A DNA stretch of 64,000 nucleotides from NCBI GenBank assembly GCA_905160935.1, contig CAJHZI010000311.1, positions 266,001 to 330,000 of the forward strand, in the 5' to 3' direction. Shown here one piece after another: positions 13,865 to 38,600 of the stretch. The notes under the pieces are model-generated. The model ran no database searches and was not told the origin of the DNA. It worked only from the letters and a program-made list of their open reading frames with translations. Each line of letters starts with the position of its first letter. The stretch's first letter is position 1. This stretch comes from Enchytraeus crypticus. Its lineage: Eukaryota > Annelida > Clitellata > Enchytraeida > Enchytraeidae. Position numbers and translations under genes: made by a program.

Positions 13865-16800
13865 ATGTTTCTCTACAACTTAACCCTTCAGAGGGCAACC
13901 GGAATAACTCATGTTATTCATGGAAACTTTTCCGGCACCAAGCAGCAGGAGTTGGTTATGTCGAGAGGTAAAATTCTGGAGCTTATGCGTCCAGATCCAA
14001 ATACGGGAAAGGTTTATCCTCTACTTGCCACGGAAGTTTTTGGAGTTATTCGCTCTCTCATGCCGTTCAGACTAACGGGTGGATCGAAAGGTTTGTGATC
14101 ACGTTCTAATTCTGCTATATATCAAGACTGTATTAATAATAACCTGCCAGGAACTTGTAAAGTGGTCTCAAAGACCAGACACCGGTCACGACAACACTAT
14201 TGAAATTGTCAGAGGATATTACTATCATTATTATAGTTAAATTTGATTACTGGAATAGCTATGGTAAACAAAAACAACGAGGTTGCTTGTTAAATAGCTC
14301 TACCTATTAGTAGTTAATTTATCGAGTTATAGTGTTATTCTCGTCTCACTAGATTGCCCGATTATGGTATATATCTAGTTTCACCATATCATTTGGAATT
14401 CATCACTTTCAGTAGGAAAAATCAGAAATTAAATTCTAACGCATTACTGTTTACACTGGTTGAACTTGGCCCTATACGCTCGCGTAGCGTTAGGCGCACG
14501 TCTCCGGTTAACTCACCTCTCCAGTTAGGGTTCTACTAATCCAGTCAGTATGGCTGAGTTGGGCATAGAGATGGCGCTGCAAAGGGCATTAAAGAAAATA
14601 GAAGAACTAGAATCTGAGCTAGCCTTCTATAAAGAAATATAAGATACTCCAGAAGAATATAGAACTCCAGAAGAATATAGAGCACTGCGAAATACAGTTG
14701 AGCAAAACAAGTATCAATGGCATACTTATGAAAATAAACAAGATAGACCTCTCAGAGTTATCGCAAAAAATTTGCTTTCTTCATGTGATCCAGAAGAAAT
14801 TAAATCAGAATTGCAAAATCAAAACTACAAAATAATCCAGGTTGAACCTAGGTTTAAGAAGACAACTGAAGGAAATGTTCAATGTTCCCTTACTTGTGTT
14901 TACTCTCGTTTTTGAACAGACAGAGGACATTAAACGAGTTTTCAACATTCAATACCTGTGTCACATGAGAGTCAAGATTGAGGCCATAAGAACAAATAAA
15001 GTAATCCCTCAATGTAAAAGATGCCAAAGATATGGCCACACTAAAAAATTTTGCTATCGCTATTTTGTGTGTGTTAAAATGTGCTGGTAAGCACAGTTCA
15101 TCCCAATGTACGAAAGCAAATGATCTGCCAGCTAAATGTTCAAACTGCGGCGAAGCTCATCCGGCAAGCTATAGAGGCTGTGTGATAGCCAAAGAACTTC
15201 AGAAGCGAAGGCAAGAATCTCAAACACCTAAAACAACTACTGCTCTCTTGAAGCCTGCTGGTATTGTCCAGAACGGTATCACATATTCCATGGCAACTAA
15301 AGTACAGTAAAAAGTTCCTGCACCCAGTGACGTCCAGGCATCTGATCTAAGACAAATGTTTACGCATATGATGGAGATATTTAAGAAAGTTGGTGAAAGG
15401 CTAAATGTTCTAGAGGCTGAGACAAATTCACCAACTAAAAACTTAAATTCTAATAATGGATAGAACAGATTTAAGAATAGCACTCTGGAATGCCAACATC
15501 ATTCTGAACAAAAAGACTGAATTGGAGGTATTCGTACAAAGTCAGTCAATAGATGTCTGCTTAATAATGGAAATGCATTTTACAAGAGAGTCATACCTAA
15601 AAATTAGAGGTTACAAATGTTATCATACAACACATCCAGAAAATCAGGCGAGAGGAGGCAGTGCAGTTATTGTTAAGGATTCAATAGATCATTATGAAGA
15701 AGGATATTTGCAAAAGCCAGAAATACAGCTAACCCTAGTTTCTATCATATCAATGAAACAAACTTTTATTATAGGCGCTGCCTATATTCCACCCAGACAT
15801 AACCTTAAAGCAGCACAATATAAAGTACTTCTGCAACAACTCGGCGAGAGATTTATTCTTGGAGGTGATTTCAACGCTAAGCATGTAGACTGGGGTTCTA
15901 GAATAACTACAACTAAAGGTAGTGAGCTAAGAAAAGCTATCAAAGAACTGGTCTACAACTTTAAGTCAATAGGTAAACCACTTACTGGCCAACATATACT
16001 AATAAACTTCCTGATCTGTTGGACTTCTTCATCACCAGGAAAGTTTCATCAAACTTCCTCCACACGAATGATAACTATGATCTCAACTCTGACCACTCTG
16101 CAGTACTTCTCACACTAAGTGAGAAAATAATCAAAATTAAATCTCGACCTACATTGATAAATAAAACTACAAATTGGATGGGTTTCAAATGCAATCTGCA
16201 AAACAATATTAACTTAAAAATTGCTCTAAAAACAAAAGAGCAGCTAGAAGAAGAAGCTGAGAAATTTGTAAGAATTGTACAGAATGCAGCTCTCAGAAAT
16301 ACTCGAGAAAGAACTTTCTCTACTCCAGGTAAAAACTTTCATATTGAAATCAGGCAGCTTGTGACTGAAAAACGAAAGGCAAGACGAAGGTGGCAGCAAA
16401 CTAGAGATCCAGGAGATAAAACTATTCTAAACAATAAAACTCAAAACTTGAAAAGAGAAATACAGAAATTAAAGGAAGAGTCTATGGATTCATATCTAAG
16501 TAATCTAACGCCAAACCGTGATGGCAATTACTCTCTATGGAAAGCTACAAAGAAAATTAAGACCTGTCATCTCAATTCCTCCAATCAGGAAGGGAACTGA
16601 ACTCTGGGCCAGAAGCAATAAACAGGAAGCTGATCTGTTTGCAGAAAGTCTGTATGAGATTTTTCAACCAAATCAAATACAGAGCAATATTTCACTTCAC
16701 CTATCTCAAATGGCAAATTTGAAAATATTCCATTTACTATGCCTAACGAATTGGCTCATGAGATAAAAACAAATTTAAGTCCAAAGAAGGCTCCAGGTTT

Positions 16801-17735
16801 TGATCTGATAACAACTGGACGTATTTTGAAAGAATTGCCTAGGAAAGGATTAGTCATGTTGACTTACTTAATTAATGCTGAATTTCGACTAAGATATATT
16901 CCTGATATCTGGAAAGTGGCAGAGGTAATTATGATACCAAAGCCAGATAAACCCCCACTGATGTTAAATCATACAGGCCTATTTCTCTTCTACCAGTTAT
17001 ATTGAAGTTTTTGAAAAGCTACTGTTGAAAAGAATGAAACCGATCATTGAAATACGCAAGTTAATCCCTGATTTTCAGTTCGGTTTTAGGAAAAAGCATA
17101 CTACAATAGAACAGGTACATCGTATATCTGATATAATTGAGAATGCACTAGAGAAAAAAAGTTAGCACAGCAGTATTCCTTGACATAGCTGCTGCTTTTG
17201 ATAAGGTTTGGCATGAAGGCTTGGTACATAAACTCACGCAGCAGATGCCGCCACAGTATACCGAGATTTTAACGTCATATGTCTCAAATAGAACATACAG
17301 AGTAAAATATGAAAACGAACATTCTGATCTCAAAGATATACATGCTGGTGTCACACAAGGAAGTGTTATAGGACCAATCCTCTACCTGCTCTATACTTGC
17401 GATATTCCAGTTATGGGAGGAGTTACTCTGGCAACACTTGCAGATGATACAGCAATAATCGCAACTGGAAAAGATCTCGCCATATCCACGAGCATAGTAC
17501 AAGCAGTGTGTAATAAATTTCTGGAATGGACTAAATCTTGGAAGATAAAGTTAAATGAACAGAAGTCTATTCACGTAAACTTTACAAATAAAAGAATAAA
17601 GAATCCGAAAAGGCTCTCTATCAATGGTACAGAAGTCACATATGAAAATAATGCCAAATATCTTGGTATGAATCTAGATAATAAGCTGAGATGGAAAGAG
17701 CATGTTCAGAAGAAAAGAAATGAGCTCAACCTCAG

Positions 17736-17777
<42 letters not shown>

Positions 17778-20700
17778 TTAGAGTGCTACAGTCATCAATG
17801 ACAACATCAAGCACTATTGAGACAAAAATCAAGCCAGCGAGCAAAAAGAAGGTCCAAAAACGGTGCAAAATCCGGAAATTCAGTCCAAAGTAAAGGGAGT
17901 TAAAGAAAAGATGCTTTAGGCGCAGGTCGCTGCTCATGAACACTGGATGGAAAAGAGAGATGGAAAAGATAGGTCTTCAACTACCTATGGAATAGCTCAT
18001 AGGAAAGCAAAGGCCGATGTGATTCAAATGAAGCTTTCCGATGATTGGATGGAAGAGAATTCCAGATCTGCGGTGCAGCATGCTGGAAAGAACGATTAGA
18101 TAACTTAGAGCGTGAAGGTAAGCTAGGTCTCACAAGAGTAATTGACTTAGAAGACCGAGTAACAGCAGGCTGCATCACTTTAATCAAGTGAGACATACAA
18201 GTTTGTCCAGGGATGGTGATGGACTTGTAGGTTAACGAAGCTGTTTTATAAAAGATACGCTCTTTAATCTTTAGCCAGTGCAAAGACTTTATAATAGGCG
18301 TAACATGTGAGTACTTGGAACTACAAGAAATTGCCCGCGCAAGAGAATTCTGAACAAACTGCAACCGATCAATCTCACAGCCAGGGAGATTTAAAAACAG
18401 GGAATTGCAGTAGTCCAACTTCGATTGCACAAGAGCAGCACCAATTGTAGAAGCTGTCTCACGTGACAAATATGGACGTATTCGATGAAGATCACGGATA
18501 TGGAAGAAACACGCTTGTGAATATAGGCAATACTACTGGCTTATTGGACGAAATTCTAAACTCTCGATACATAATAAACTAATAATATACTCTCAAGTGT
18601 TGAAGCCAGTCTGGCTATATGGATGTCAAATTTGGGGCTGTACCAAATCATCTAATACTAAGATTGTCCAGACGTTCCAGAATAAGGTGTTAAGAAACAT
18701 TGTAAATGCTCCTTGGTACATCAGAAATAATGATATTCATCTTGATCTGAAAATACCCCTGGTAGTAGAAGTAATAAGAAACTCGATAACAAGACATCAA
18801 GACCGACTCAGTCATCACATCAATCCGCAAGCTCTTCAACTACTGAACCAACTACGTCGCTTCCGCAGGCTGAAGAGGACTAAGCCCTTCGAACTAGTGT
18901 AATAATTTAGTCACTAGACTAGATCAGAAGCCTTCTATAAGTAATATACTTTAAAACTACTTCATAAGATGTTGAAATTATTTACTTTTGCAACCGAAAC
19001 GTAATCATTGGATTATCTTTAGTTAAAAGTACTCTCAGACTGTTAGAACAAAATTAATGGTTGGTCTTAGCAGACCAGTTTTAATTCTTTAAATATTAAA
19101 AAAAAATTTATTACTGATTTCAATAAACTGGGGAAATAAATATGTGAAACTTGTGTTTATTAATACTAATTCTTTTAAAAGCTTTTTCATTTTAGAGGTT
19201 TAAATTAATAATGTCAAACAAATTGATGAAAATCTGTTTCTCTGCATTAACGCCCACCCCTGTTTATCTTTTCAAATCATCTAGTTGGGAGTCTTGACAG
19301 CTTGTTACTCGTTAGCTTGTAGTGCTTGCTGTTTTAAAGTAAACTATTTTATGTATAAATCTTGAATTTACTGTTATCTATCTCTAGAGATAGGCTCACT
19401 GTTTGTTATCAATAGTTATATTCTTAACTGTTATTTTTTAAACTGGAGTGGTGCTTGCAAAAAATAATATTTTGTTGTAAGAAGGCACCATTTTATTTAT
19501 GTACTTGAGTCGCTGAATAATATTTAAAGTTAATGATTATGTGCTGTATTCGAATTAAGATTTTATTTTATTTTATTACTGCTTTTAATTGAAATGTATG
19601 TTTTTAACTCTGCTGCAGATTATATTGTGATTGGCTCAGACTCGGGAAGAATTACCATACTGGAGTATGCTCCTGCTAAGAATGCATTTGAGAGGGTTTG
19701 CATTTTTACCATTGACTTGTAGCTAGAACTGTGAAAGTAATAGTTAAAGTAATAGTCAGCCCGGTTATTAAGAATTTCTCTAACCATTAACGATTCACTA
19801 AGTATTAACAAAGCTAATAGCCGTGCTAGTAGCAATGTCAATAACTATGACATTGCTGGTATAGATGTAATCATTAAGTACCTGGCTGGAGCCAGTGGCG
19901 ATGTCGGTAAGACATTCGACTGCGAATTAGTATGTGTGGGGATCAGAGCCTGGGCTCGCCCGTCGCTGATATCGCTTTCGAGTGAGGAAACCAACGTTAT
20001 CATTAGCTTTAGCTTTTTTGATACAGATTCCCACAGGACTATATGCTAGTTTGTTGTACTATTGTACAGGTTCATCAGGAGACTTTTGGTAAGAGCGGTT
20101 GCAGGAGAATTGTTCCAGGACAGTATCTGGCTGTGGATCCCAAGGGCAGAGCCATGATGATAGGTTAGCTTCTACTCCTGTCTGCATCACCTATTTGAAC
20201 TAATTCTTATAGTACATATTTCATCAGACAGCTTTAAAAGTTTTTAAGTTACTTAGTAACTGCAGTTACTGATAAAACGTACACACGTAGGGTTAATTTT
20301 TATTTCAATCTGTCTGTTTCACATTCATGAGCAAACTATTTTATACTCATGATCGTCATCAGATCCTTGCGTTCTGTACAGAACATAGGGCGGCAACATT
20401 CCTCCATTCTTTTCTATCATCAGCAATCTTCACAGTGTCTTCCCGTGAAATGTTTAATGATCTAATTTTATACTCAACACACTTTAAATGGAATATTGTT
20501 AACTACCACTGTCAATAATTTATCAACATTGAGACCTTCCAGAGTAATTGCTCCACAAAAGCAGCCAGCTAGTTAGAATTGCTTACTAATAGAATGGAAT
20601 GAACTGCCTGTGAATAGTTATATAGTACATTTTAACATTTGATTGGCAGAGATTGAAACGTTGATTATAGCGTTGTATAACTGCTTGCGTCACAGGAGCA

Positions 20701-23700
20701 GTAGAGAATCAGAAGTTGGTTTATATATTGGACATTTGATTGGCCTAGATTGCGCAGAAACGTTGGACATTTGATTGGCAGAAACGTTGATTATAGCGTT
20801 GTATAACTGTTTATGTCACAGGAGCGGTAGAGAAGCAGAAGCTTGTCTATATATTGAACAGAGACGCCCAGGCCAGACTGACCATATCGTCTCCTCTGGA
20901 GGCACACAAGTCCAATACTCTGGTCTATCACATGGTTGGCGTGGATGTGGGCTTTGAGAACCCGACCTTCGCCTGTCTGGAAATAGACTACGAGGTGCGT
21001 TGATCTTGAGATTTTGTTTTTAAACTCTTTTAATTTGCTGACTGTTCATTGAAGTGTTAAAGCTATAAATTTAAGCTATAGTGCAAGCCTGATGGTAGCA
21101 TTTCAAACTATATCCATATAAATTATATTCTTACTACTGACTTATAATATCGTTTAAACTGATATATCCTTAAGGCGACTTATATCCTTTAAGCTGGCTT
21201 ATATCCTTTAAGCCGACTTATATCCTTTATGCAGACTTATATCCTTTCAGCCGACTTATATTCTTTCAGCCAACTTATATTCTTTAAGCAGACTTATATC
21301 CTTTCAGCCGACTTATATCCTTTAAGCAGACTTATATCCTTTCAGCCGACTTATATCCTTTAAGCAGACTTATATCTTTAAAGCCAGCTTATATTCTTGA
21401 AGTCTGCTTATATCCTTCACATTAATATTACATGGTGCTTGACATTAACTTGCATGGTGCTTGACATTAACTTGCATGGTGCTTGACATTAACTTGCATG
21501 GTGCTTGATCGTACTGTGCCTGAAACTGATTGTGATGAATTACTTGGCCTTTAGAAAGTTGATGATTACTCGACTGTAGAATGATAAATAATGAATAGAA
21601 AAAGTGGTTCCTTGTGGATTGATAGCAGTGTGTGATGAGAATGGTAGATCTATAGAACTTGAAGGAAGTTACTGCAGGTTATATCTTGATGGATTGACTG
21701 AAATTCTATATTGATTGATTGATGGATTGATTGAGGGATGTATCTGTCTCTACTCTGTTTCAGACCACATAAGATCTAGACTGATTGATTGATTGTATAT
21801 TGTTTGATTGATTGTATATTGATTGATGGATCGATTGATTGAGAGATATATCTGTTGCTACTTGTTCATACAACGTAAGATCTTGATTGATTGATTGATT
21901 GTATAGGAAGCGGACAACGATGCTACGGGAGAGATGGTACAGAAGACGCAGCAGATGTTGACGTACTATGAGTTAGATCTTGGACTGAATCACGTCGTTA
22001 GGAAGTACGCCGAGCAGCTAGAAGAGCACGCCAACTTCCTCATCTCTGGTTGGTGTCGTAGTCGCTTACGTTTGTTGTCAGATAATTATGATGTTTATGC
22101 TGATGTTAATATTTGTGTGTGCAGTGACTGGAGGTACCGAGGGACCCATTGGTATGTTGATATCTCTCTCTCTCTTCGTGCACTGTCTAATGGCAGGTCC
22201 ATGTTGTATAACGCCTCCACGCTTCTCTTCCTTTCACATTTCACTCCATGTCCACATATGAGTGAATCTTTATGTGGGCATGAAGAGGAAAGCAGAAGCC
22301 AGAGAAGCGTGGTGGCAATATATGATGTTGATGTGTATACTGTGTGCATATTTGTATGTGATGATGTGTACAGTACCTGGAGATACATAGGGATCCAGTG
22401 GTGTGTTGAAGTGTATACTGTTGTGCATATTTGTATGTGGTGATGTGTACAGTACCTGGAGATACATAGGGACCCAGTGGTGTGTTGATGTGTATACTGC
22501 TGTGCATATTTGTGTGTGGTGATGTGTACAGTACCTGGAGATACATAGGGACCCAGTGGTGTGTTGATGTATATACATGTACATATTTGTGTGTGGTGAT
22601 GTGTACAGTACCTGGCTGATGTATATACATGTACATATTTGTGTGTGATGATGTGTACAGTGCCTGGAGGTACAGAAGGACCGAGTGGTGTGTTGATCTG
22701 TTCTGAGAACTACATCACATACAAGAACTTCGGAGATCAGCCTGACATAAGATGCCCTATACCAAGACGCAGGGTCGGTATTATTTATAATTCTTTGAAT
22801 TTAAAAGCATTTTAATTATCCAGGAGTGTAAGACAACATCACATCATCATATCATTTGCAAAGTGATTTGAGATATTTTTAGAAACAACATGTAGTTATA
22901 AAGCTGGGCTTACAGTATTGAAAGAATTTATTTAAATGTTTTGTGTTCATTTATCTCTTTATAGATTTATGCTCTCTCTTCGTTTTCCCAATTCATCTTC
23001 ATTCGTACCTCCATGGATTCATCCTTACTGGTATCTCCATAATTCGTGTTGTTACCGAATTTCAATGATGAATTTTATAATGCATGTGGTAGAATCAGAT
23101 GTATTTCTAAATGATGTTTTCTATAAGTATTGTGTATTTGCTTGTACAGAATGATCTGGATGATCCTGAGAGAGGAATGATATTTGTGTGCAGCGCCTCT
23201 CACAAAACAAAGGTATTAACTATTATTCTGACTTGATATAAAAAAATTGTCAGTGGAGGATATTTTCTTAAATCGGTACTGAGGAATTAAGGTGATGTTA
23301 ATTAAATTGCTGATATGAGAAACGGTTTAGCATTTTTCTAAGTATATCTCTAGGTTTAATTGTGGATGGCATTTGTCTAATTGGTCAAGAGAGCTCTTCA
23401 GAATTGTGAGACATAGGTTCAAATACTTAACCAGCAGTAATAGACTAGTATTGTTGGAAGGTGATTCTTGAGTCGGGATAAACTGCACTGTATGGCATCA
23501 TCGTCGTCATCTTCTTCCCCTGAATCCTTGATTATGCTTTGCATTTTGTTATATTTAGAAAGATGTGTTTAAGATAATTTATATAAACTCTACTTGTAGA
23601 TACTCTTTGAGAATTACAATTTAGAATGGGCTACTTAAAACTGTGTTATTAATATTATATGATCAGTAAGGAAATATTGTAACTTTCTGTACACACAGTC

Positions 23701-26700
23701 GATGTTTTTCTTTCTCGCTCAAACGGAGCAAGGTGACATCTTTAAGATTACGCTGGAAACAGACGAAGATATGGTACGTATATTTTGTGTTAATACAATA
23801 TAATGTAATACAATTCAATACGTTATAATGTGATACAATGCTTTTTAGAATTCAAATTGTATTTAAAATAAAATTATGATAATTGAACATTTTTTTTACA
23901 TCCAAGCAATGTTAAGAGTCTTAAAATAACATTTAACTCTTTGATTAATTAGCTAACCGGAGAATTGAATCCACTATTTTCAGTTCATCTAGAACGAGTT
24001 CTTTAGAATATCATGACACTACCTGCCATCTTATGCCATGATTTGTTTGTGCGATTTCCATAACCCAATTTTACAGGCTACTGTCTCTTTTTGCTATCTG
24101 ACTAGAAAAAAGTGATCATTATTATTAAACGTCACATTACGTGATAGTTGTAATCGTTAATATTACTGATGCGGTATATGTGGTGCAATGCAGGTAACGG
24201 AGATTCGCATGAAGTACTTTGATACAGTGCCCATCGCCACCTCACTGTGTGTTCTCAAGACTGGGTTCCTATTCGCTGCATCAGAGTTTGGCAATCAGTA
24301 AGCTGTTCAATTGTTAATTTATTCTGTTCCAGACATATGCTATCTTGTGGATAAACATCTGAATAATACATTAAATACACCATTAAAATTCAGTCATTTC
24401 AAATCAATCAATATAATTGAGTTTTAAAATCAAATCTAAATTTTTCTTCAATTTAAAGCAAATCATCAATTATCGCCCAATTGTTTGCTTGCTCTGCCGT
24501 ATAAATTTTAAATATTTTATGCACAACTGTTGTTATACTTGTAAATAGATTAAAACACCATTTGAATACATCATTTTTCTGCATAAATTTTAAAATGCTT
24601 ATGCCCAGATAATTTTTTGGTGTTGTTGTCATACGATTTACTGTGAGTTTCTGATCCAATTTGCGATCATTTTCTGTGTTTTGAGAAGAGTTTTCGATCT
24701 ATAGCCATTGACATATACGATCACAGGCTGACATATTGCGGAGTTTATAGTCTACAACCCTATAGTTTGTTTTTGAAAGTTTTCTATATGAAAGTAGTAT
24801 AAAAAATTATGAAAATTATGTATTCACTGTTGATTAAATTGATTGATTGATTGATTGTAGCTATCTCTATCAGATAGCGCACCTGGGTGATGATGATGAT
24901 GAGCCAGAATTCAGCAGTGCTATGCCCCTAGAGGAGGGTGACACGTTCTTCTTTGCACCACGTCCACTCAAGAATCTCGTCATGGTTGATGAGCTCGACA
25001 GTCTCTCTCCGATCATGCATTGTCAGGTTTGAATACACTTCATCATCATCAGTTCCTTGAGTTCTGTACAGAACATAGGGCGGCAACATTCCTCCATTCA
25101 TTTCCATCATCAGCAATCTTCACAGCGTCTTCCCATGAAATGTTTAATGCTCTCAAATCCTTGTTGATCGTATTTAGCCAAGTACCTCTAGGTCTTCCTC
25201 GTTTCCTTTTTCCTTGAGTTCGCTTCCAGTTAACTGTAGACTTTGCGTAAATTTTACACTTTGAGTACATTTACTACTGATTAATTAATTATAATTATCA
25301 ATCAGACTGCAAGTGAATTAAGATTTTCACTATTTCTATATTTTATGTACTAGACACTTTGTCAGGTTTGAATAAACCTGACAGTTACTACTGATTATAT
25401 ATACAACTATATTATCAATAAGACAGAAAGTTAATGAAGAGTTTCTTATATCAGTAATTTGGTACTAGACACTTGACTACAATATTACCTATTGTGTTAA
25501 AACGATAACTTACAATATTTAAAATTATAATTGCTTTTGTCACTTGTTTTGAAGATAGTCGATTTTTGACTACATAGCACTATTTTGGACTAAGCGCTAT
25601 TCTTCTGATAACTGTATAATTCAAATAATGGTAATCTCTTACTACTGAATTATTTGTGAACTGTTGCTTTATTGGATTGACATAGTTTTTTATTTTTCAT
25701 ATGTTATGGATTTGTATTGGAATAAGGCACTCCATTGGGTACACTTTGATGCATTTGAAGTGTTAATGATATTGTGTCGCTTGCAGATTGCTGATCTGTT
25801 GAACGAAGATAACGCTCAGTTGTACGCTTTGTGCGGGAGAGGTCCAAGATCTTCACTTAGAGTCCTCCGACACGGTCTGGAGGTGAGGCTGATTGATCCG
25901 CTTAATCTAATTATTTTAAAGCTGGTAAAGCTAATGTTAACGTCAGTTTCCTCACTCCAAAGCGGCGTAAGTGATGGGCGAGCCCAGGATTTGAACCCAG
26001 CACACACTGATCCGCTGTCGAATAGCTTAACGACATCGCTACTGGCTCCAGTTTGATTCTTTACTGAATAAGGGACAAATACTAGGATATATTTGTTGTG
26101 ATATCTAAAGAAAAAGGTAGTAGGGAAAATTACTTTTGCCTTTGTAAAACTATTTTCTCTGATAAATTTAGAATTTAATAAATTCTAAAGAAAAAGGTAG
26201 TAGGAAAAATTACTTTTGCCTTTGTAAATTTAGAATTTAATAAATTCAGAAATGATGCCTAATTGTGATTGGTAGGAGAAAATATTAAAATTTGAAGTGA
26301 AATTAATTTAACAGCGTAAATGTGACCAATATGACACATATGAGTGGACGTTATCAGTTCTCGTTCCTTAATCTAAGATGAAAAAACCTTCTGCAAGTAT
26401 TCAAACTGTATACAATTACTATATATATATATTATTATTATTATTATTATATATAATTATTATAATTATTATTATTATTTGTGGTTTTGAGAAATAGTTT
26501 TAGTTAAAAACGCAGAGGCTAAGATAGTATGTGTTTTTTAACCACAATGTACTGCTGTATAAAATCTTGCATACAGGGTGTAGAATCTGAACATGCGTCC
26601 TGCTGCATGTCGGGCAAGTTTGCTAACGAATTGGCGCAACGTGGTAAAAAAGATAATTATGTATGTGTTTATGTATTAGCTACTTATTTATGCATGTGTT

Positions 26701-27053
26701 TATGTAGGTATCTGAGATGGCTGTATCTGAACTTCCTGGTAATCCTAATGCTGTATGGACGGTCAAAAGAAACGTTGAAGGTAATTGAACTTGATGTCTA
26801 ATATTTCTTTAATATTCTATTATAGTATACTTCATTTGGTATGTAAATCTTTATAGATTTATTTATTTATTTTTCATTAGTTCCACTTGTGTTCATTTGG
26901 GGCAGTGGTTCTAGTAAAATTATAATTTGAATAGTTTAATTTCATTTTATTTATTTTAAACTAAACTTAATTGTTTTAACAGTATATTCTTGCGATGATT
27001 ACAACTTTTTTCATTGCTGTATTACTGATATTATTGTTTCTAGTGTATATTTA

Positions 27054-27107
<54 letters not shown>

Positions 27108-27191
27108 TTTTACCCGTGTTGTGTCCGAGTTAATAGACCAACCATGGACTGCACTACTGTAAAATGTTGTAAAATAATATTTATAGTATAT

Positions 27192-27270
<79 letters not shown>

Positions 27271-29544
27271 ACATGTATATATGTGTATATATATGTGTAT
27301 ATATATATATATATTTCTATTTGTATATCTATATTATACCACATTACTTAACTACTAAATTATATTATTCTACTATATTTATGCTATATTTATTATGATA
27401 TATCGATGCATTCTCTCAGATGACTACGACTCGTACATCATAGTGTCGTTCGTTAACGCCACCCTGGTTCTGTCTATCGGAGAAACTGTAGAAGAAGTGA
27501 CGGACTCTGGTTTTCTTGGCACGACGCCAACTCTGTCCTGTTCACAGCTCGGTGATGATGCTCTAGTGCAGGTATAGTGCCCAGCTTGAGAAAGATTAGC
27601 GTAACTTAGCATTATTTAGACTTGTTAGGTACAAGGCTTGTAGCAGCATTATTATAACAAGTTGAATATTTAAATATTACTGCATCAATGTAAAATAACA
27701 ATGCAACGTCTAATAATGTCGTGAATTGTAACGTCTGTTATCTTTTAGAACAGTTGTCTGGCTAGTTGGTTTAACTTTGCTAGGTTTCGTTAATGTGTTT
27801 TTAATTGAGGCTAAAATAAGGGTATTTTCCATATGTTATTGTCTGCATTTTTCTATTATATACGTGGGTAACTAATCAGATGCTATTTAATCTCTGTATG
27901 CATTGATGTTTATTGGATTATAATAGATCTTCATTTTTCCAATCGAACAGTATTTGGATCGGAAGAGTATTTGAATCAAATAGTCTACTACAGAGTAATT
28001 AATTTGATGTTATCTTATGTTTATTATAGATAATATTTATACATTTATAGTTGCCAGGATGTCAGAAATGAATGATACCCTTCAGTTAATATTGTAATAA
28101 TAATAATAATATATATATAATAATTAATACTTAATAATAATAATAATAATAATAATTTAATAATTAATAGATAATAAATAATAATATATATAGTAATAAT
28201 AACAAATATTAATTATATAATATTGATTAACAACGTGCATAAAATTTCTAGATATATCCGGACGGTATAAGACACATCCGATCAGACAAGAGAGTCAACG
28301 AGTGGAAGACGCCTGGCAAGAAGACGATTGTTAAGTGTGCGATGAACCAGCGACAGGTCGTGATTGCCCTCACTGGCGGTGAACTAGTCTACTTTGAGAT
28401 GGACATGGTTAGTGCTGTTTGTACTCTCTGCTGCTCTTTTGATGCAGTTTTAAATCGCTGTGTGATATCAAAAAACGAAGTTTTGGTTCAAAATATATAA
28501 ATAGTGAAGATAAATATACATGTATATACGTTTGTTGGACAGCCATCGAGTAAATCTGTATTTTAAAAAAATGCATAGTATTGTGACATATCTATAAGGG
28601 AGTTCTAATGTAAAAAAAGAATCCTTAAATATTTATATAGGTTAACTCAAAAAAATATTTTTTCAGTACAGGTTTTACATAGGGACCTCTGACGATAACT
28701 CTTCTGAGGAAGCACCAGTCGATGATTTCGTTCTTTTGTTTATTTATTGAAAATTTATACTTTATTTGTTTACTGATTTACTGCTGACCTTGGTAATTGG
28801 TTACAATACAATACGTCATAATTTATTGTTGCAATGCAGTATAATTTATTGTTACTCATGATTTAAGGCATTGGTGTGATTTGTTTTTATTGATTAATTG
28901 ATTGAATGAATGATTGATTGATTGATCAGACAGGACAGTTGAATGAGTACACTGAGAGGAAGGAGCTCTCTGTTGATGTGATATGCATTGATTGATTGAT
29001 TGATTGATTGATCAGACAGGACAATTAAATGATTATACAGAGAGGAAGGAGCTATCGGTTGATGTGATATGCATTGATTGATTGACTGATTGATCAGACT
29101 GGACAGTTGAATGAGTACACTGAGAGGAAGGAGCTATCCGTTGATGTGATATATATTGCTTGATTGATTGATTGATTGATTGATCAGACTGGACAGTTGA
29201 ATGAGTACACTGAGAGGAAGGAGCTGTCAGTTGATGTTATATGTATGGCTCTTGGAAGAGTCAGTCACGGAGACCAGAGGTCAAAGTTTCTCGCTGTGGG
29301 CCTGGCGGATAACACCGTCAGAATCATCTCCCTCGATCCTGCTGTTGGTATCCACTTGTTCAATTTTAAATCAATCGTTAGCGCTACTTAATATGAATGT
29401 GCATTCTGATTGATTATTCTGATTGCTCATAGAAGTAGTGGGTAAACATTTATTAAATTGTTGCTTAATATTTTATTTAGATTTTATTCATATTTTTCTA
29501 TATATTTCTCTTTTTATATATTTATCTTTTTTATAAATATTTAG

Positions 29545-29630
<86 letters not shown>

Positions 29631-32600
29631 ATATCTATATATTTATATTTCTATATATTTATATCCACCTGACTGAGGAAGGCAACGGGAAACCACCTCA
29701 GAAGCCAAATTTTTCCCAAGCTATAGGCTACATAAGGTATTGATAAGGCTTAGACTTTGTGAAGGGATTAACTTGTTGATCTATGGAGTGCTCTTATGGA
29801 GCGAGAAAGCAGACTTTGAGTATGAATATGTACCTTGAACCTGCCACTTGGCACTGAAGAAGATATTTATATTTTTATATATTTATCCTTCTATATATTT
29901 AACTTTCTATATATTTATATTTCTATATATTTATCCTTCTATATATTTATATTTTTATTATATATTTATCTTTTTATATATATATTTATCTTTCTATATA
30001 TTTATCTTTTACGTTCCTGACATCATCCTTGTGTGAGAAAATGGACGTTAAACCTTAATTATTATTATTAGTATTATTATTATATATTTATCTTTTTATA
30101 TATTTATCTTTTTATATTTATCTGTCTGGTTAGACTGGGATTTAAGGAATGATGATGATGATGATATGTTTGTCTTTCAATGCATTTATCTATTTATATA
30201 TTTATGTGTTGATGTGTTCAGGACTGCCTGTCGCCGCTGTCCATGCAGGCTCTACCAGCGACCCCGGAGTCTCTGTGTATCGTAGAGATGGGGGGTCATG
30301 AGGTTAAGGGAGATGAGGAGGGCAGTGGCAGCAAGGGGGGTCTGTTCCTCAATATTGGCCTACAGGTTTGTCGACTCATACCATTTCTAAATCCTAATAA
30401 TTAAGTGAAAAAGTAATAATAAAATAATAATTAATTTAGGAAATTGAAATAAATGAAGTAATTAAATTGAGGTGATTAAATCTAATTCATTGGTGTATTA
30501 GCATTTTATTTCTTATTAATTAAAGTTTACGGGCAGTTTTATAAAAGTAACAGTAGTGTTTGGTCATATAAAGAGTTAAATACTATTAGTCAGTTATACA
30601 ACAGCTACTTGTCAGCGTGTTGTTGTTGTTGTAGTGTAGAATGGGGTGTTGTTGTTGTGTAGAATGGGGTGTTGTTGTTGTTGTGTAGAATGGGGTGTTG
30701 TTGTGTGGAATGGGGTGTTGTTATTGTAGTGTAGAACAGGGTGTTATTGTTGTTGTAGTGTAGAACGGAGTGTTGTTGTTGTTGTGTAGAACAGGGTGTT
30801 GTTGTTTTGTAGAACAGGGTGTTGTTGTTGTTATTGTGTAGAACGGGGTGTTGTTGTTGTTGTGTAGAACGGGGTGTTGTTGTGTAGAATGGTTTGTTGT
30901 TGTTGTATAGAACGGGGTGTTGTTGTTGTGTAGAACGGGGTGTTGTTGTTATTGTGTAGAACGGGGTGTTGTTGTTGTTGTGTAGAACGGGGTGTTGTTG
31001 TTGTGTAGAATGTCTCAATAGCATAGGGGTAATGTCATGAAGTTCTAAATGACAGATCCTGAGGTGAATGGGACCTTCGTGGGTTCAAATCCCAGCCGCG
31101 CTGATCTGAGAGTAAAATCTCGGACATTCACTGGACTGGTTATACGGAAAATGGACTAAATTGCTTAACGGTTTAAACATGTGGTATTAAAAGTGATAGA
31201 TATCGACATAGTTGATCATTTCACTATACTTGCTTGTTTACTTTTAGAACGGTGTGTTGCTGAGGACTGTACTGGACACTGTCACAGGGGACCTCTCTGA
31301 CACTCGCACTCGATACATCGGGACTCGACCTGTCAAGCTCTTCAGAATCTTTATGCAGGGCTCAGAGGCTGTGAGTAGTTGTCTGCTTTAACTCTTTCTT
31401 TAGATCATAAGTCCTATGTTAAATTTATAAGTGTGGCTTTTTTATTATTTTATTTACGTTTGCAATGGTAAGACTCTGTCAAATGGCTGGAATACCTTGC
31501 TTAAGCTATTTATATCAGAATTGTTTATATTTTTTCATTTAAATTGTTATGTAAATGATATATTGCAGTTAATTTACCGTATTGTATTTGTTTGCAAATT
31601 GTATTTAATATTTAGTATTTTTGTTTTGTATTGAATATATTGTATTTAACGGACTGTATTTGTTGTATTATATTTAATATGTTGTATTTAATGGATTATA
31701 TTTATCGATTTGTATTTAATATATCGTATTTAATGGATTGTATTTGTTGTATTGCATTATTTGACTGATTGTATTTGTTGTATTATATTTAATGGATTTT
31801 ATTTAATGGATTTTATTTGTTGTATTGTATTTGCTGTATTGTATTTAACGGATTGTATTTGTTGTATTGTATTTACTGTATTGTATTTACTGTATTGTAT
31901 TTGCTGTATTGTATATACTGTATTGTATTTTCTGTATTGTATTTACTGTATTGTATTTGCTGTATTGTATATACTGTATTGTATTTTCTGTATTGTATTT
32001 ACTGTATTGTATTTATTGTTGCTCAGGTTCTGGCCATGTCAAGCAGATCATGGCTGAGCTACTCCTATCAGAATCGCTTTCACCTCACCCCGCTCTCCTA
32101 CGACATGCTGGAGTACGCCTCAGGATTTGCCTCAGAACAATGTCCTGAGGGCATTGTGGCCATCAGCACCAACACGCTCAGGTAAGTGGACCTGCACCGG
32201 ATCCGATCTCTACTTTTAAACTTATTGCTCGTCTATTGCAATCTGCCGCTAGTTCTACTTGTATACTATTCTCTATCGTTTGGATGTCTTCTGCGGTTGA
32301 TGAATCAGACTCTGAATTCTGATTGATTGACTGATTGATCTGTTGCTACCCTTAGATAAAAAAGGGAGTAGTAAATATATAATTTAAATATTAAATATTT
32401 CATGTTTCTTTCCTCATCCCAGATCATGTCAGAGATGTAATAAATAGTAATCAACATCTTAAATTAGTGATGTATCATTTAAACCATTCGGACGTAACAT
32501 CTCTATCGTCTTTCCTTGGGATCTTTTCTTGAGTCCCAGTTTAGCTATGGTTGGGACGTTAGGACAAAGCCATGCAATAAATTTCAGTTGTGTGTATTCT

Positions 32601-35600
32601 TGAAGGATATTCTCGCTTTGAAGCTGCTGTATTGTAAGGTCATCATAGCATATCATATTACTGTTGTGATAGGTTTTTAAGCAAAAACTTTAGTGTTTCT
32701 TATCTCCGTCTTTCTGTGTTTACTGCGGTGGTCAGCTCGAGAGGGTACTTCAGTGCCCTCTCTGATCGCCGTAGTGAGCAAATTTTTATTTTCTGTTTGG
32801 TGCTACATATTTTGATCACACTTTGAACTGTTGATTTGTCTGTTTTCACAATTGTTTGTCGGTGTTTGAAGACTTTTTTAAGTAAACATATGTACTACTA
32901 TGTCATCATATTTATTTGTTTGAAGACTTTTTTAAGTAAACATATGTACTACTATATCATCGTATTCATGTTCGCAGGATTTTGGCACTTGAGAAGCTCG
33001 GCGCAGTGTTCAATCAGGTGTCAACGCCTCTCAAGTACACGCCGCGCAAGTTTGCGATAGACACGGACAGCAACAACCTGATAATCATAGAGTCTGATCA
33101 CAACACCTACACTGAGGAGACCAAGAAGACCCGCAAAGAGACCATGGCCAAGGTTTAACACTCACTATCTTCTTTCAGCTGCTGACTGTAGCTTATTATG
33201 CAATTTTATTATAAAAGTTATTACGAAGATATAGGTAATTTACATGTATATTGTATATTGCAAGGGAAGATGATGATGATGGATATGAAACTGCGTCTAA
33301 ATTCGCTTTGGATAGGCTTAGACAATGCTTAGACAAGCTCAATAAATACATGTATGCCAAAAGTATTCATAAAATAATGGTGTTTGATAGTATTTTTCCC
33401 ACTCTCTGTTGACAGGAAATGGTGGAGGCAGCTAGCGAGGAGGAGCAACAGTTAGCTACTGAGATGGCTCAGGCATTCCTGGACGAGAAGTTACCGGAGG
33501 AAGTGTTTGGTGCGCCTAAAGCTGGTGCGGGTATGTGGGCGTCGTGTGTGCACATCATCGACCCCATGGTCGTGCAGAGAACCCTGTACGAGCACGCTTT
33601 TGAACAGAACGAGGCTGCTTTCAGGTTATTATTATGATCATCTTCTTTTTCCCGCGAATTAACTTAATTTTTGCTTGAAATCATCTTAGATGACCTCTAA
33701 TAACAATAATAACAACAGTTAGAGTGCTACCGTCATCTATGACAACATCGAGCACTGTTGAGTCAAAATCAAGCTGGCGAGCAAGAAGAAATGACGAGTT
33801 AAAAAATGATGCAAATTCTAAAATCCAGAAAATCAGTCCAAGGTAATACATCATGCCGTGTGCTCTGAATATAATATTGGTTGTTAAACTGTTCCATATG
33901 ATATTAGTGTGAGATATGATATCTCACACTAGCTGCGTACATCTACTAGAATATAATGATAGCCATGTGGCGTAATTAACTTAATTTTTTCTTGAAATCA
34001 TCTTAGATGATCTCTAATAAATCATGCCCTGTCCTCTGTATGTACAGCATAGCTATTACGAAGTTTGCTGGACTGGGAGACCAGCAGTTTGTGGTCATTG
34101 GCACGGCTGTGGACCTCGTGCTCAACCCTCGATCTATCAGCGCCGGCTACCTCCACGTCTTCAGGCTGACCAATGGAGGCACAGCGCTCGAGTTTGTGCA
34201 CAAGACTGTCTGCGATGAACTGCCCGGGGCCATTCTACCATTCCAGGGTCGACTGCTCGTGGGTGTGGGGCGATTCCTCAGGATCTACGACATGGGCAAG
34301 AAAAAACTTCTGCGCAAGTGCGAGAATAAGGTCTGTAGTGTATTGTGTTTATTTGAAGTTATCTGTAAGTAGTTATTCAGTTGAGTTGAAAACTTCTGCG
34401 CAAGTGCGAAAATAAGGTCTGTAGTATATTGTGTTTATTTGAAATTATTTTCCCTCTCATCTGTTGTGAAAAAAATGATATACCAAGACCGTTAATATGA
34501 TTTACACGATCTTTTGATTCTCTACTTGCTGTTTCTATTTAACTGCGAAATAAAATTGTAATTCGATAAATTTCATTACCATGCTACCATCAAGAATTTT
34601 TATTTGTTTCACTTTGTAGCATATACCGAACTTCATCGTTGGACTGCACAGCAGCGGAAACAACCGCATCATCGTGTCGGACATTCAGGAGAGCTTCCAC
34701 TTCGTCAAGTACAAGCGGCAGGAAAATCAGCTGATCGTGTTTGCTGACGACACTAATCCTCGCTGGCTCACCTGCTCCGCTCTGCTCGATCACTCCACCG
34801 TCGCAGGAGCGGACAAGTTTGGAAACATCTCCGTGGTAAGACTTCTTAACGCACTCTCTCTCTCTCTCTTAGTGCACTGCCTACTGGCAGGTCCAAGTAG
34901 CAAGTCTTCTCAATGCATTATAATATAATAATTATAATATTTAATTATTTATAATATTTATTAACTTTAAATTTCCCGCTCTGTAAATATTTAAATAATA
35001 AAAAGCTGGTAAAGCTAAGTTAACGTCTGTTTCCTAACTCGAAAGCGATGTCAGTGACGGGCGAGCCCAGGATTTGAATCCCGCACATACTGATCCGCGG
35101 TCGAGTGTCTTACCGACTTTCTGCCACTGGCTCCAGCCAGTAATAACTGCATAAAACAATATTTATGAACTTTAAAATTTCTCACCCTGGAAATATTAAA
35201 AAAAATTTCCGCATCAAAGTTCCAGTTTTCTATAGCATTATTTTAGATCTAGTTAATGTAACTGTGTTGAGTTTCTCTATTATGTTAGTAATTTCACGCT
35301 AAAATAAGGGTGCTTTCTAATATTTTTTATGGTCTGCATTTGATTTTTCGACTGTTTCCTGTTACTCTTTTTGCATTACTGTCTGCCTTTTATAACGTCT
35401 ACAACAATCCTCTGTTTCATCTGATACTGAAACTATCACCAAAAAATATCACCTCACTTCACTTTCCTTTTCTCAACTTGCTTGGCAGAACTAATACATC
35501 CACCTGATGGCCCTTGCTTTTAATCGTTTCCTAATATCTTCAATTCATTTATTACTGTCATTGGATAATATTGATTAACTTGACTTGATGTGAATTAAAT

Positions 35601-38600
35601 CTACTCTTATTTTTTTTGAGTAAAATATATTTTGATTAATTGACAAAATAAATCGATTGATTGACTAACTAGTCGATTGATTGTTTCATTGATTTTCTAG
35701 ATATCTTAGTTGACTGATTGAATGATTGACTGGTTGTTTTATTGATTGGCTGGTGGATGAATTGATGGCTTGGTTGACTAATTTACTGATACTGATCAAC
35801 TGATTGATTGATTGTTTGATTGATTGATTGATCGACCGATTGATTGATTTACAGGTTCGCCTGCTACCTGATGTGAATGATGATGTAGATGAGGACCCGA
35901 CAGGAAGCAAGGCTCTGTGGGACAGGGGAGTACTCAATGGGGCGTCCCAGAAGGTTTGTGCCTTGGACTGTCGTTAGAGCGCTTCCTTTGCTTCCTTACT
36001 AATAATAAATAACAATAACAACAATTAGAGTGCTACAGTCATCAATGACGACATAGAGCACTATTGAGTCAAAATCAAGCCGGCGAGCAAAAAGAAGATC
36101 CAAAAACGGTGCAAATTCAAAAATCTAGAATATCAGAAACTGATTATATAGAAAATCAGAAATTCATGCATATATAATGGATCCTATAAATGCATGAGTG
36201 TGTGTATGTGTGTGCACTGTAAACAAGTTGAAATTGTATAATTGAATTTACACTTAAAATTGTATTGATTATGGTTGCACAGTCATTTTGATTTTTATGA
36301 AAACATTTTTTTTTGTATAATACATACATAGCATTATTATCGACTATTAAAATTATAGTCAGGTTTTATGTTTCTTACTTATGTTATATCTACAGCAATG
36401 TTCAAACAACCTGTTTGAACATTGCTGTATATTTTAAGTATGGCCCTATAACACCATATTTAACAGAATTTGAACAATCTTTGTATGTTATGTTATCCCG
36501 GGCTCTCCCGCCACTGCCTTCGCTTTGGAAAGATGAACCTGACGATTACTGCTCTACAGCTCTTATTGCTAAGTTGTCAGGCTTACTGGTATCTTTTAGC
36601 CGTAACCCTTAATTCAACCTGACAGTTTTCATAATTATTGATAAGCTATAATTGTATAACTAATTGACGTCCCTGACGTCATCCTTGTGTGAAGAAACGG
36701 ACGTTAAACTTTTATTCTTATTATTAATATTAAAATGCAACCTATATTTATTTAGAGAGGCATTCTGACTAGCTAAAAATCTAGTATATTATAACAACTC
36801 TATTATCATCAATAACATTCCTTTTGATATACAATTATTCTTGGGGATTCTGCACATGACGAGGTGGACCCCCTATGCCTTCTTCAGCTTCGACTAACAT
36901 TTACTGGGCAGGGGCGTCATTCCCTAAGAAAACAATCCTGTTTACCCATAAGTTGTAACGGCATAATTAAAGTGCAACCTATATTTATTTAGAGATATTA
37001 TGTTTACCCATAAGCTGTAACTGCATAATTAAAGTGCAGCCTATATTTATTTAGAGATAGTCTGACTAGTTATTTCTCTATTATCGCTCAGGCGCAGGTG
37101 ATGTCTAATTTCTATGTGGGGGAGACAGTGACGTCAGTGCAGAAGGCTAATCTCATCCCCGGGGGCTCAGAGTCCCTCGTCTACACGTCTCTCTCAGGTG
37201 GCATAGGCATGCTCGTCCCCTTCACGTCCCACGAGGTAGCCACCGCTCTATTACAGTTCTGTTGTTTCATTACACTTTCACTCAGTCAATTTACAAATTT
37301 AGTTGAACCTTCATTAATGGTCATATTTACTAGTGAGATAATCAAGTGTTTAAACCTCAACAGTTGCTTAAACTACTGATTAGTCATAATTTGATATTTT
37401 GCAAGGTTGAATCGATGTGTAAAGTAATGCATAGCGCCTGTTTTTGGCCGCTTAAACAGTAGATTAGTTACACCACTGATTAAGAAATAATATTCTGGCT
37501 TTGTTTACGAAGTAAGCTGATGACGTCCCTGACATCATCCTTGTATGAGGAAACGGACGTTAAACCTTTATTATTATTATTATTATTATTGGTCAATCAG
37601 CGTGAAGGACAGCGCTGTGATTGGCTCAGTGGCATAATTTAGGAGGTTGACCTTGTAGTTATTAACCACGCAATATTTTTTAGTGAATACCAAAAATTCG
37701 GAACAATAGTTGACAAAAGAAATAAATGAGAAGTTAACGTCTGGTTCCTCGACATAAGTCAATGTCCGGGACGTCAATATAATGAATATATTGATTATAC
37801 GTAATTAATGAAACCGGTTATATTGCTTTGAATAAAATGCCTGAAGATGTGATTTAGTAAATGCATGTATATTGCTTGATTGTTGAGCCCTGGGCGTCCA
37901 GAAATTGCTGCAATATATTTTAAAACGAATGGGAACAGGTCTATTCGTATCCCAATCCTCGTTAAACTGGGACTCAAGGGAAGATGATGATGATGATGAT
38001 GATGATGTTTGATAATGGTGATGATGATGATAATAGTGATGATGATAATAATGATGAGGATGATGACGATGATGATGATGATGACGATGATGATTGATTT
38101 ATTGATTAATTGATTGATTGTCGTAGGATCATGATTTCTTCCAGCACCTGGAGATGCACATGCGCTCTGAGATGTCCACGCTGTGTGGAAGAGATCACCT
38201 CTCCTACAGGTCCTACTACTTCCCTGTCAGGGTATGTATCAATTAGTATGATTAATATTGATTAATATGATTAATATCGATTAGTATGATTAATGTCGAT
38301 TAGTATGATTAATATCGATTAATATGATTAATGTCGACTAGTATGATTAATGTCGATTAGTATGATTAATATCGATTAGTATGATTAATATCGATTAGTA
38401 TGATTAATATCAATTAGTATGATTAATATAGACTAGTATGATTAATATCGATTAGTATGATTAATATCGATTAGTATGATTAATATAGATTAGTATGATT
38501 AATATCGATTAGTATGATTAATATCAATTAGTATGATTAATATTGATTAGTGTGATTAATATCCATTAGTATGATTAATATTGATTAGTGTGATTAATGC

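Follow-up and report, generated by a model that had tools for sequence, protein, structure and literature searches.

Why should three partial copies of an exon start, each closed by an in-frame stop codon and all lying directly before the exon itself, differ from that exon almost only at silent sites? The question is raised by the gene for splicing factor 3B subunit 3 (SF3B3) of Enchytraeus crypticus, within a stretch of 64,000 nucleotides (C228:266001-330000, contig CAJHZI010000311.1) that we refer to as the window and in which positions are counted from its first base. The G+C content of the window is 0.31-0.37, and the assembly that was searched comprises 524 Mb in 802 contigs.

The SF3B3 gene and an array of exon 15 starts

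The SF3B3 exons were located with a human probe together with GT-AG junctions. The exon whose start is repeated, taken for SF3B3 exon 15 in an initial annotation of this DNA, holds that place in a complete 27-exon gene model. The features of the gene and the array are the following, with a slash marking the splice point.

13865..40490, plus strand: SF3B3, 27 coding exons with GT-AG junctions and an uninterrupted frame of 1219 amino acids
28408..29187, plus strand: intron 14, 780 nt, donor ATG/GTTAGT, containing C1 to C3 if the last acceptor is used
28901..29243, plus strand: tandem array of four units of 82-90 bp, each an (ATTG)n tract, CAG and exon 15 start
28930..28988, plus strand: copy C1 of the exon 15 start, 91.5% identical over 59 nt, 19 codons followed by Ile, Asp and stop
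29016..29074, plus strand: copy C2 of the exon 15 start, 83.1% identical over 59 nt, 19 codons followed by Ile, Asp and stop
29098..29160, plus strand: copy C3 of the exon 15 start, 92.1% identical over 63 nt, 19 codons followed by Ile, Ala and stop
29188..29343, plus strand: the real exon 15 of the gene model, 156 nt, phase 0-0, donor GCT/GTTGGT

The joined protein matches human SF3B3 (PDB 5o9z) over residues 1-1219 with a score of 2281 bits. A genome-wide protein search with SF3B3 listed 26 matches, all 26 of which fall at the SF3B3 locus, and a DNA search of the genome with exon 15 gave four matches, namely exon 15 itself and C1 to C3; a longer DNA query listed 88 matches, and those at other places mostly cover the ATTG tract. 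Because the protein matches all lie at this locus and exon 15 DNA is unique to the array, we found no second SF3B3 gene in the assembly by these protein and exon 15 DNA searches. A divergent paralogue was also considered as the donor of the copies, and none was found in the assembly. From the intact frame we infer that the last acceptor is the one used for exon 15, and the same uninterrupted frame is a pointer that only suggests that normal SF3B3 splicing is undisturbed by the array. Several open frames in SF3B3 intron 1 (15447-17781) resemble, by reading, a non-LTR retrotransposon with endonuclease and reverse transcriptase.

The four tandem blocks seen in the initial annotation can be read directly and are recovered by TRF as an array at 28901-29243 with a period of 86 and 4.0 copies. 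The acceptors end with CAG at 28929, 29015, 29097 and 29187, giving lengths of 86, 82 and 90 bp for the three upstream units, and all four terminate in GATTGATCAG. Past codon 19 the sequence reads ATT GAT TGA in C1 and C2 and ATT GCT TGA in C3, which places the stop noted earlier for every copy at codon 22 of C1, C2 and C3; only the last unit continues into the exon. At the join after codon 19 we find ATATGCATTGATTG in C1 and C2 and ATATATATTGCTTGATTG in C3, readable as one junction that was later altered, so that the units are probably descended from a single duplication. The tracts following C1 and C2 are told apart by a single base and a length step of 4 bases, so that this portion of the array looks young, with the caveats that a microsatellite is a poor clock and that the third tract differs more. 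Codons 2-12 are identical in C1, C3 and the real exon with the differences lying beyond them, which gives the array a mosaic appearance.

Tracts of ATTG/GATT are present in the last 60 nt of five of the 26 SF3B3 introns (those before exons 5, 10, 15, 23 and 25) as compared with 12 of 339 other 60-nt bins, and such tracts supply many UUGAU branch-point-like sites. When 28890-29260 is folded as RNA, the ATTG tracts pair mutually in the predicted structure (z -2.15; 1 of 100 shuffles as stable), and this predicted pairing could conceal some of the four acceptors.

Divergence among the units is almost entirely silent

Over 19 codons C1 departs from the real exon by five silent differences, C2 by nine silent differences and one replacement (Glu-Asp), and C3 by three silent differences and one replacement (Cys-Tyr) in codon 19 at the edge of the copy; this recount agrees with the numbers first given for each copy. 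Within codons 1-18 the four units vary in nine columns, all of them third positions, with at least 12 changes and one Glu-to-Asp, and at codon 14 all four TCN codons are present. Codon 19 contributes one third-position and one second-position change. The minimum numbers of changes at the three codon positions are 0/0/12 for codons 1-18 and 0/1/13 for codons 1-19, for which the probabilities by position only (1/3 each) are 1.9e-6 and 6.1e-6; with variable columns alone, nine of nine are third positions in codons 1-18 (P 5e-5) and 10 of 11 in codons 1-19 (P 1.3e-4).

The initial annotation had set these counts against a neutral expectation of three quarters replacement changes, which is valid only for changes on the decaying copy. 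The 18 codons of exon 15 hold 13.8 silent and 40.2 replacement sites, and by arithmetic from these counts a neutral copy compared with a silently evolving exon is expected to show about 41% silent differences. Since the real exon itself changes, and does so silently, the fair null is milder than 3:1 in favor of replacement; the silent excess still stands.

We therefore applied this fairer null by fitting a codon model with an assumed omega of 0.03 on the real-exon branch and with copy branches that were either neutral or free, under four tree shapes. Likelihood ratio statistics against neutral copies are 18.9-21.7 for 18 codons and 19.4-20.5 for 19 codons (p 3e-6 to 1.4e-5), and the copy branches are fitted with an omega of 0.03-0.05, which is as low as the 0.03 assumed for the real exon. 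Judged from sequence, the copies bear what appears to be the signature of purifying selection, and descent from functional sources would give an equal signature.

We also simulated neutral arrays and counted, among those with at least 12 changes, the arrays having at most one amino-acid-variable codon. There were 21 of 255,111 with the fitted branches, none of 389,541 with equal branches, none of 399,791 and none of 400,000 with two clock ladders, and 540 of 310,700 with a long real branch and short copy branches (0.6/0.05), so that all of the simulated neutral tails are at or below 1.7e-3. The earlier claim that neutral decay does not account for the differences is thus upheld by formal count and by likelihood ratio, and ordinary neutral decay of the exon 15 copies is rejected on these models, for a case of 18 codons picked by eye among an unknown number of windows.

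Exon-edge copies elsewhere and control arrays

Copies of exon edges are not confined to exon 15, either in SF3B3 or in the downstream neighbor gene, which we take to be pyruvate carboxylase by its exon matches to a probe.

20696..20734, plus strand: copy of the exon 4 start, 126 bp upstream of exon 4, 84.6% identical over 39 nt
22125..22161, plus strand: copy A of the exon 6 start, 83.8% identical over 37 nt
22374..22568, plus strand: copies B, C and D of the exon 6 start, spaced 79 bp, with an in-frame TAG in each
34389..34416, plus strand: copy of the exon 21 end, 27 of 28 nt identical, followed by the donor GTCTGTAG
C228:343797, 356071 and 356792 (L017 ~3797; L018 ~6071 and ~6792): copies of three pyruvate carboxylase exon starts (107797, 120071 and 120792 of the joined stretch), placed 42-147 bp ahead of the genuine starts

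When all 27 SF3B3 exons were compared with the whole window, four had edge copies in adjacent introns, and three of 19 matched coding stretches of pyruvate carboxylase had exon-start copies in a same-strand search out to 3 kb; two further stretches of this gene were scored as copy-free, one having simple-repeat matches and the other, by reading, intron-tail matches. Edge copies in an adjacent intron are thus present at seven of 46 exons of two neighboring genes, six at starts and one at an end. A coding-score scan yielded 22 candidates, which include two more short (18 nt) exon-start-like copies (194910 and 223175 in joined-stretch coordinates); the remaining candidates are, by reading, already known arrays or repeats.

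Three multi-copy arrays can be tested alone as controls, at SF3B3 exon 6 and at pyruvate carboxylase 107797 and 120071. Neutrality was not rejected in any of the three, and the best omega grid value exceeds 1 in all of them. Setting omega to 0.1 costs the control arrays 8.5, 4.4 and 6.8 log units (19.7 in sum), whereas exon 15 gains 10.8 at 0.03; with the three controls fitting neutrality, exon 15 is the outlier among four testable arrays in all. In the two-copy cases (exon 4, the exon 21 end and pyruvate carboxylase 120792) changes on the copy and on the exon are inseparable when branch lengths are free. Pyruvate carboxylase 120792, over 16 codons, has five silent and two replacement changes and so tends in the direction of exon 15; the codon site count was used for this case and for the exon 15 site counts only.

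The array was also ranked by an annotation-free scan of 264 kb around the window, in which the C2/real pair came top of 262 diverged local repeat pairs for period-3 differences, with a score of 5.1e-5 after phase correction. An additional 50 kb (30 pairs) gave a best value of 2.1e-3, in a stretch that by reading resembles a transposon-like frame present in the window, and the best value at seven 3-kb loci elsewhere in the genome was 1.2e-2. No second array with the silent-only pattern was found within the 314 kb scanned. A tandem array of about 39 bp at L018 8421-9047, before a pyruvate carboxylase exon and next after exon 15 in the 264-kb ranking, includes one pair whose six differences share one phase. 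It was considered as a second silent-looking array and rejected, the copied stretch being intron tail by reading and the 6/6 spacing being taken as chance; that such a pair arises in sequence read as non-coding advises caution with period-3 tests of short pairs.

These comparisons bear on whether the exon 15 copies are neutral after all, having happened to retain their amino acids and then been picked up by a scan that seeks oddities. Only 18 codons and 12 changes are involved, five of the 12 at two codons, the array was selected from an unknown number of windows, and the simulation with a long real branch does produce such arrays at times. Against this stand their rarity with fitted branches and their absence with equal branches and clock ladders, and the three comparable nearby arrays, which point the opposite way and show that the test discriminates. 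We regard chance as unlikely, if by no means negligible.

Possible use of the copies as exons

Selection on the copies themselves would be a direct explanation of a low omega, if they were translated. Counted from the start of a copy, one candidate donor follows at 42 nt (GTTGAT) and another at 48 nt (GTGATA), and with them a copy could serve as an in-frame cassette micro-exon of 48 nt (or 42 nt), adding 16 (or 14) residues and spliced to a later acceptor. Both candidates (TCN/GTTGAT and GAT/GTGATA) lie at codon boundaries, so the frame would be kept on inclusion; the first change outside third positions, in C3 codon 19, lies directly beyond the 48-nt donor; and the real acceptor is 210 nt away from C1 and 124 nt away from C2, which leaves room enough for an intron. 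On a matrix of SF3B3's own donors the candidates score from -3.8 to 2.7, and scores at least as high are reached by 23% to 94% of the 1,283 GTs in introns, which puts the candidates at background; the real exon has a better GT at the corresponding place (3.3). The weakest true donors of the gene nevertheless score as low (1.0 on the matrix, -3.1 if left out of it), so that the candidates fall within the range of these. Introns between adjoining units would be only 34-48 nt long, as against 263 nt for the shortest modelled SF3B3 intron, and a redundant insert is unlikely to be constrained as strictly as SF3B3 proper.

With an acceptor in each copy and no donor clearly above background, translated micro-exons are unlikely, and any use of the copies is more likely to be as alternative acceptors. 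Direct translation is the only simple route by which a long-standing copy could be held at an omega of 0.03, and it is an unlikely one. We accordingly give translated and selected micro-exons a low probability, lower than that of chance. It is more doubtful still that the copies are expressed in some tissue or stage, as in-frame micro-exons or as an alternative end, and form a bank of interchangeable coding segments that selection for the protein would keep while their silent sites saturate.

Two related schemes were rejected. A micro-exon used together with replacement of the corresponding part of the exon, which would leave the protein unchanged, fails, by reading, in that the copy GTs and the exon AGs miss the same offset by one base, and also in that the inner AGs of the exon are preceded by purine-rich sequence. 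An antisense frame as the source of constraint fails, again by reading, in that the in-register frame places the variable sites at its own first codon position.

Comparison with known systems

Tandemly duplicated alternative coding exons are repeats of coding sequence with their own acceptor and coding-like divergence. The exon 15 copies share the acceptor and the divergence with them, but are exon starts only, with no donor clearly above background. Cassette poison exons, which have their own donor, trigger nonsense-mediated decay. Use of an exon 15 copy would likewise bring in an in-frame stop, but the copies are again distinguished by the want of a donor clearly above background, and the poison role first proposed for them is weakened to that extent.

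The closest parallel is with the tandemly duplicated intron/exon boundaries described in lancelets as 'mirages', for which normal splicing and unstable length are reported (PMC3087553; the name also in PMC3902484; available portions of both). According to the same portions, the BflGb6 mirage covers an intron end and an exon start in units that are 81-100% identical, the BflGb9 mirage covers an exon end (PMC3087553; PMC3902484), and mirages also occur near PGBD5 exons and in TnC (PMC3902484). The exon 15 array resembles them in its boundary-spanning unit, its multiple units and its repeated splice signals, and here too several exons and genes of one genome are involved (SF3B3 4/27, pyruvate carboxylase 3/19). 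It differs in that splicing and length polymorphism of the lancelet mirages were studied, whereas the exon 15 array is known from the sequence of one haplotype. Intron gain by tandem genomic duplication, as described in the available portion of PMC4974935, likewise involves a short tandem duplication bearing splice signals; for exon 15 the full frame is obtained with one acceptor, no new intron is needed, and the copies are intronic.

The array was first put forward as a form not described before. In structure it is of a known kind, a boundary minisatellite, and the coding-like divergence sets it apart as a variant: in the open-licence literature searched, as far as its available portions go, we found no report of silent-only divergence between boundary-repeat units, nor is it among the features given for the lancelet mirages (PMC3087553; PMC3902484).

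Origin of the copies

What is observed directly is the array, its common junction, its coding-like divergence and three comparable arrays that lack this divergence. The explanation that we tentatively favor, and would place just short of probable, is that the copies are non-coding decoys of the mirage type, produced by boundary duplication, and that each was recently transplanted from an exon start then still in functional use. A duplication would have joined the sequence just after exon 15 codon 19 to the upstream ATTG tract, copying the 3' splice site along with roughly the first 59 nt of the exon, and the number of units would then have been raised by unequal exchange at the ATTG tract. The three copies would be spliced out along with intron 14, the last unit alone continuing into the exon, and would have no coding role. 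Their sources would have been either other haplotypes with silent divergence or the exon itself in earlier states, and the copies would have spent little time as non-coding DNA. Since such sources were functional, the silent differences would reflect selection on the sources and not on the decoys. Edge copies at seven of 46 exons mean that no special cause is required for the duplication itself.

The time spent as non-coding DNA can be bounded. In codons 1-18 there is one replacement (Glu-Asp) in 3 x 40.2 (about 120) replacement sites, which by arithmetic corresponds to about 1% neutral change, with a 95% upper limit of about 5%, or about 6% if the Cys-Tyr change of codon 19 is included, while the copies differ from the exon at 3 to 8 per 13.8 silent sites. 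On these figures the copies seem to have evolved as real exon and to have been decoys for a short time only. Simulated capture from functional exon starts gives such arrays readily when silent change is set to 0.2 per lineage and non-coding change to 0.01: 38,431 of 181,498 arrays with at least 12 changes have at most one amino-acid-variable codon; with 0.1 per lineage and zero non-coding time, just 1,947 of 400,000 arrays attain 12 changes.

Recent transplantation therefore requires about 0.4 per silent site between the source lineages, which is, to our knowledge, several-fold above any within-species value. This required divergence is uncomfortably high and is the weak point of the transplant explanation. 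One pair of 4-kb stretches elsewhere in the assembly (C259:218801-222800 and C400:244533-248532) is 99.9% identical, gapless and with four mismatches; it may be a haplotig that was kept, a redundant contig or a duplication of recent date, would help to gauge heterozygosity, and points to low diversity there if allelic. The initial annotation had suggested that blocks were once real exon starts or were captured from divergent alleles; this survives in the form of recent transplantation of exon starts that were functional, burdened by the high divergence that it requires.

Other ways of supplying the copies with a functional history were rejected. One is a 'revolving door', in which unequal exchange between homologues moves units between decoy and real positions; in forward simulations of small populations with four parameter sets, dead copies were retained, and the four-unit arrays that matched numbered 0 of 605, 0 of 546, 0 of 376 and 0 of 513. 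The other is indirect selection through conversion of the exon by a copy, which by arithmetic is effective only with Ne x c at about 1.2 or more, with c capped by the silent divergence d = 2 mu/c, and hence requires a diversity above 1; by this bound gene conversion alone, which had been among the first suggestions, fails to fit.

Very unlikely, in our view, is an accelerated silent evolution of the exon start in answer to competition for splicing from its decoys, with later duplications recording its successive states. The order C2, C1, C3, real exon costs one extra change in codons 1-18 (at codon 13), and a purine-rich stretch, GAGAGGAAGGAG, which we take to be enhancer-like, is invariant across all four units. 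Against it, C2 sits between C1 and C3 rather than at the far end of the array, there is no indication that the silent changes alter splicing, and nothing of the kind is present at SF3B3 exon 6 or at two pyruvate carboxylase exons with decoys. Selection on splicing enhancers, proposed earlier for the copies, gives no ground for changes confined strictly to third positions.

Still less probable is that the four branch-point/AG cassettes are regulated poison acceptors that adjust SF3B3 output through nonsense-mediated decay. Such a role would fit the acceptor ending and the stop at codon 22 that the copies have in common, but leaves the amino-acid conservation in the copies unexplained, and the similar copies before pyruvate carboxylase exons argue that nothing about the arrays is peculiar to a splicing factor. 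An assembly artefact of mixed haplotypes is extremely improbable: tandem repeats are prone to misassembly and one aberrantly assembled mirage is on record (PMC3087553, available portion), but read errors would show no preference for third positions, one junction is by reading common to three units, and the array is internal to a 773-kb contig.

Significance

Silent-only, coding-like divergence is an unusual feature within the known kind of boundary arrays. If copies of this sort preserve the encoded protein and drift at silent sites, there are two possibilities: the copies are used, or the arrays record divergent functional haplotypes. If this is true, boundary arrays would be a natural archive of variation, and boundary minisatellites would provide a tool with which to test the choice made by splicing among four near-identical acceptors. 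The presence of edge copies at seven of 46 exons suggests that splicing in these genes tolerates many near-perfect decoy acceptors beside the real one, a tolerance that is relevant to how splicing selects the correct AG.
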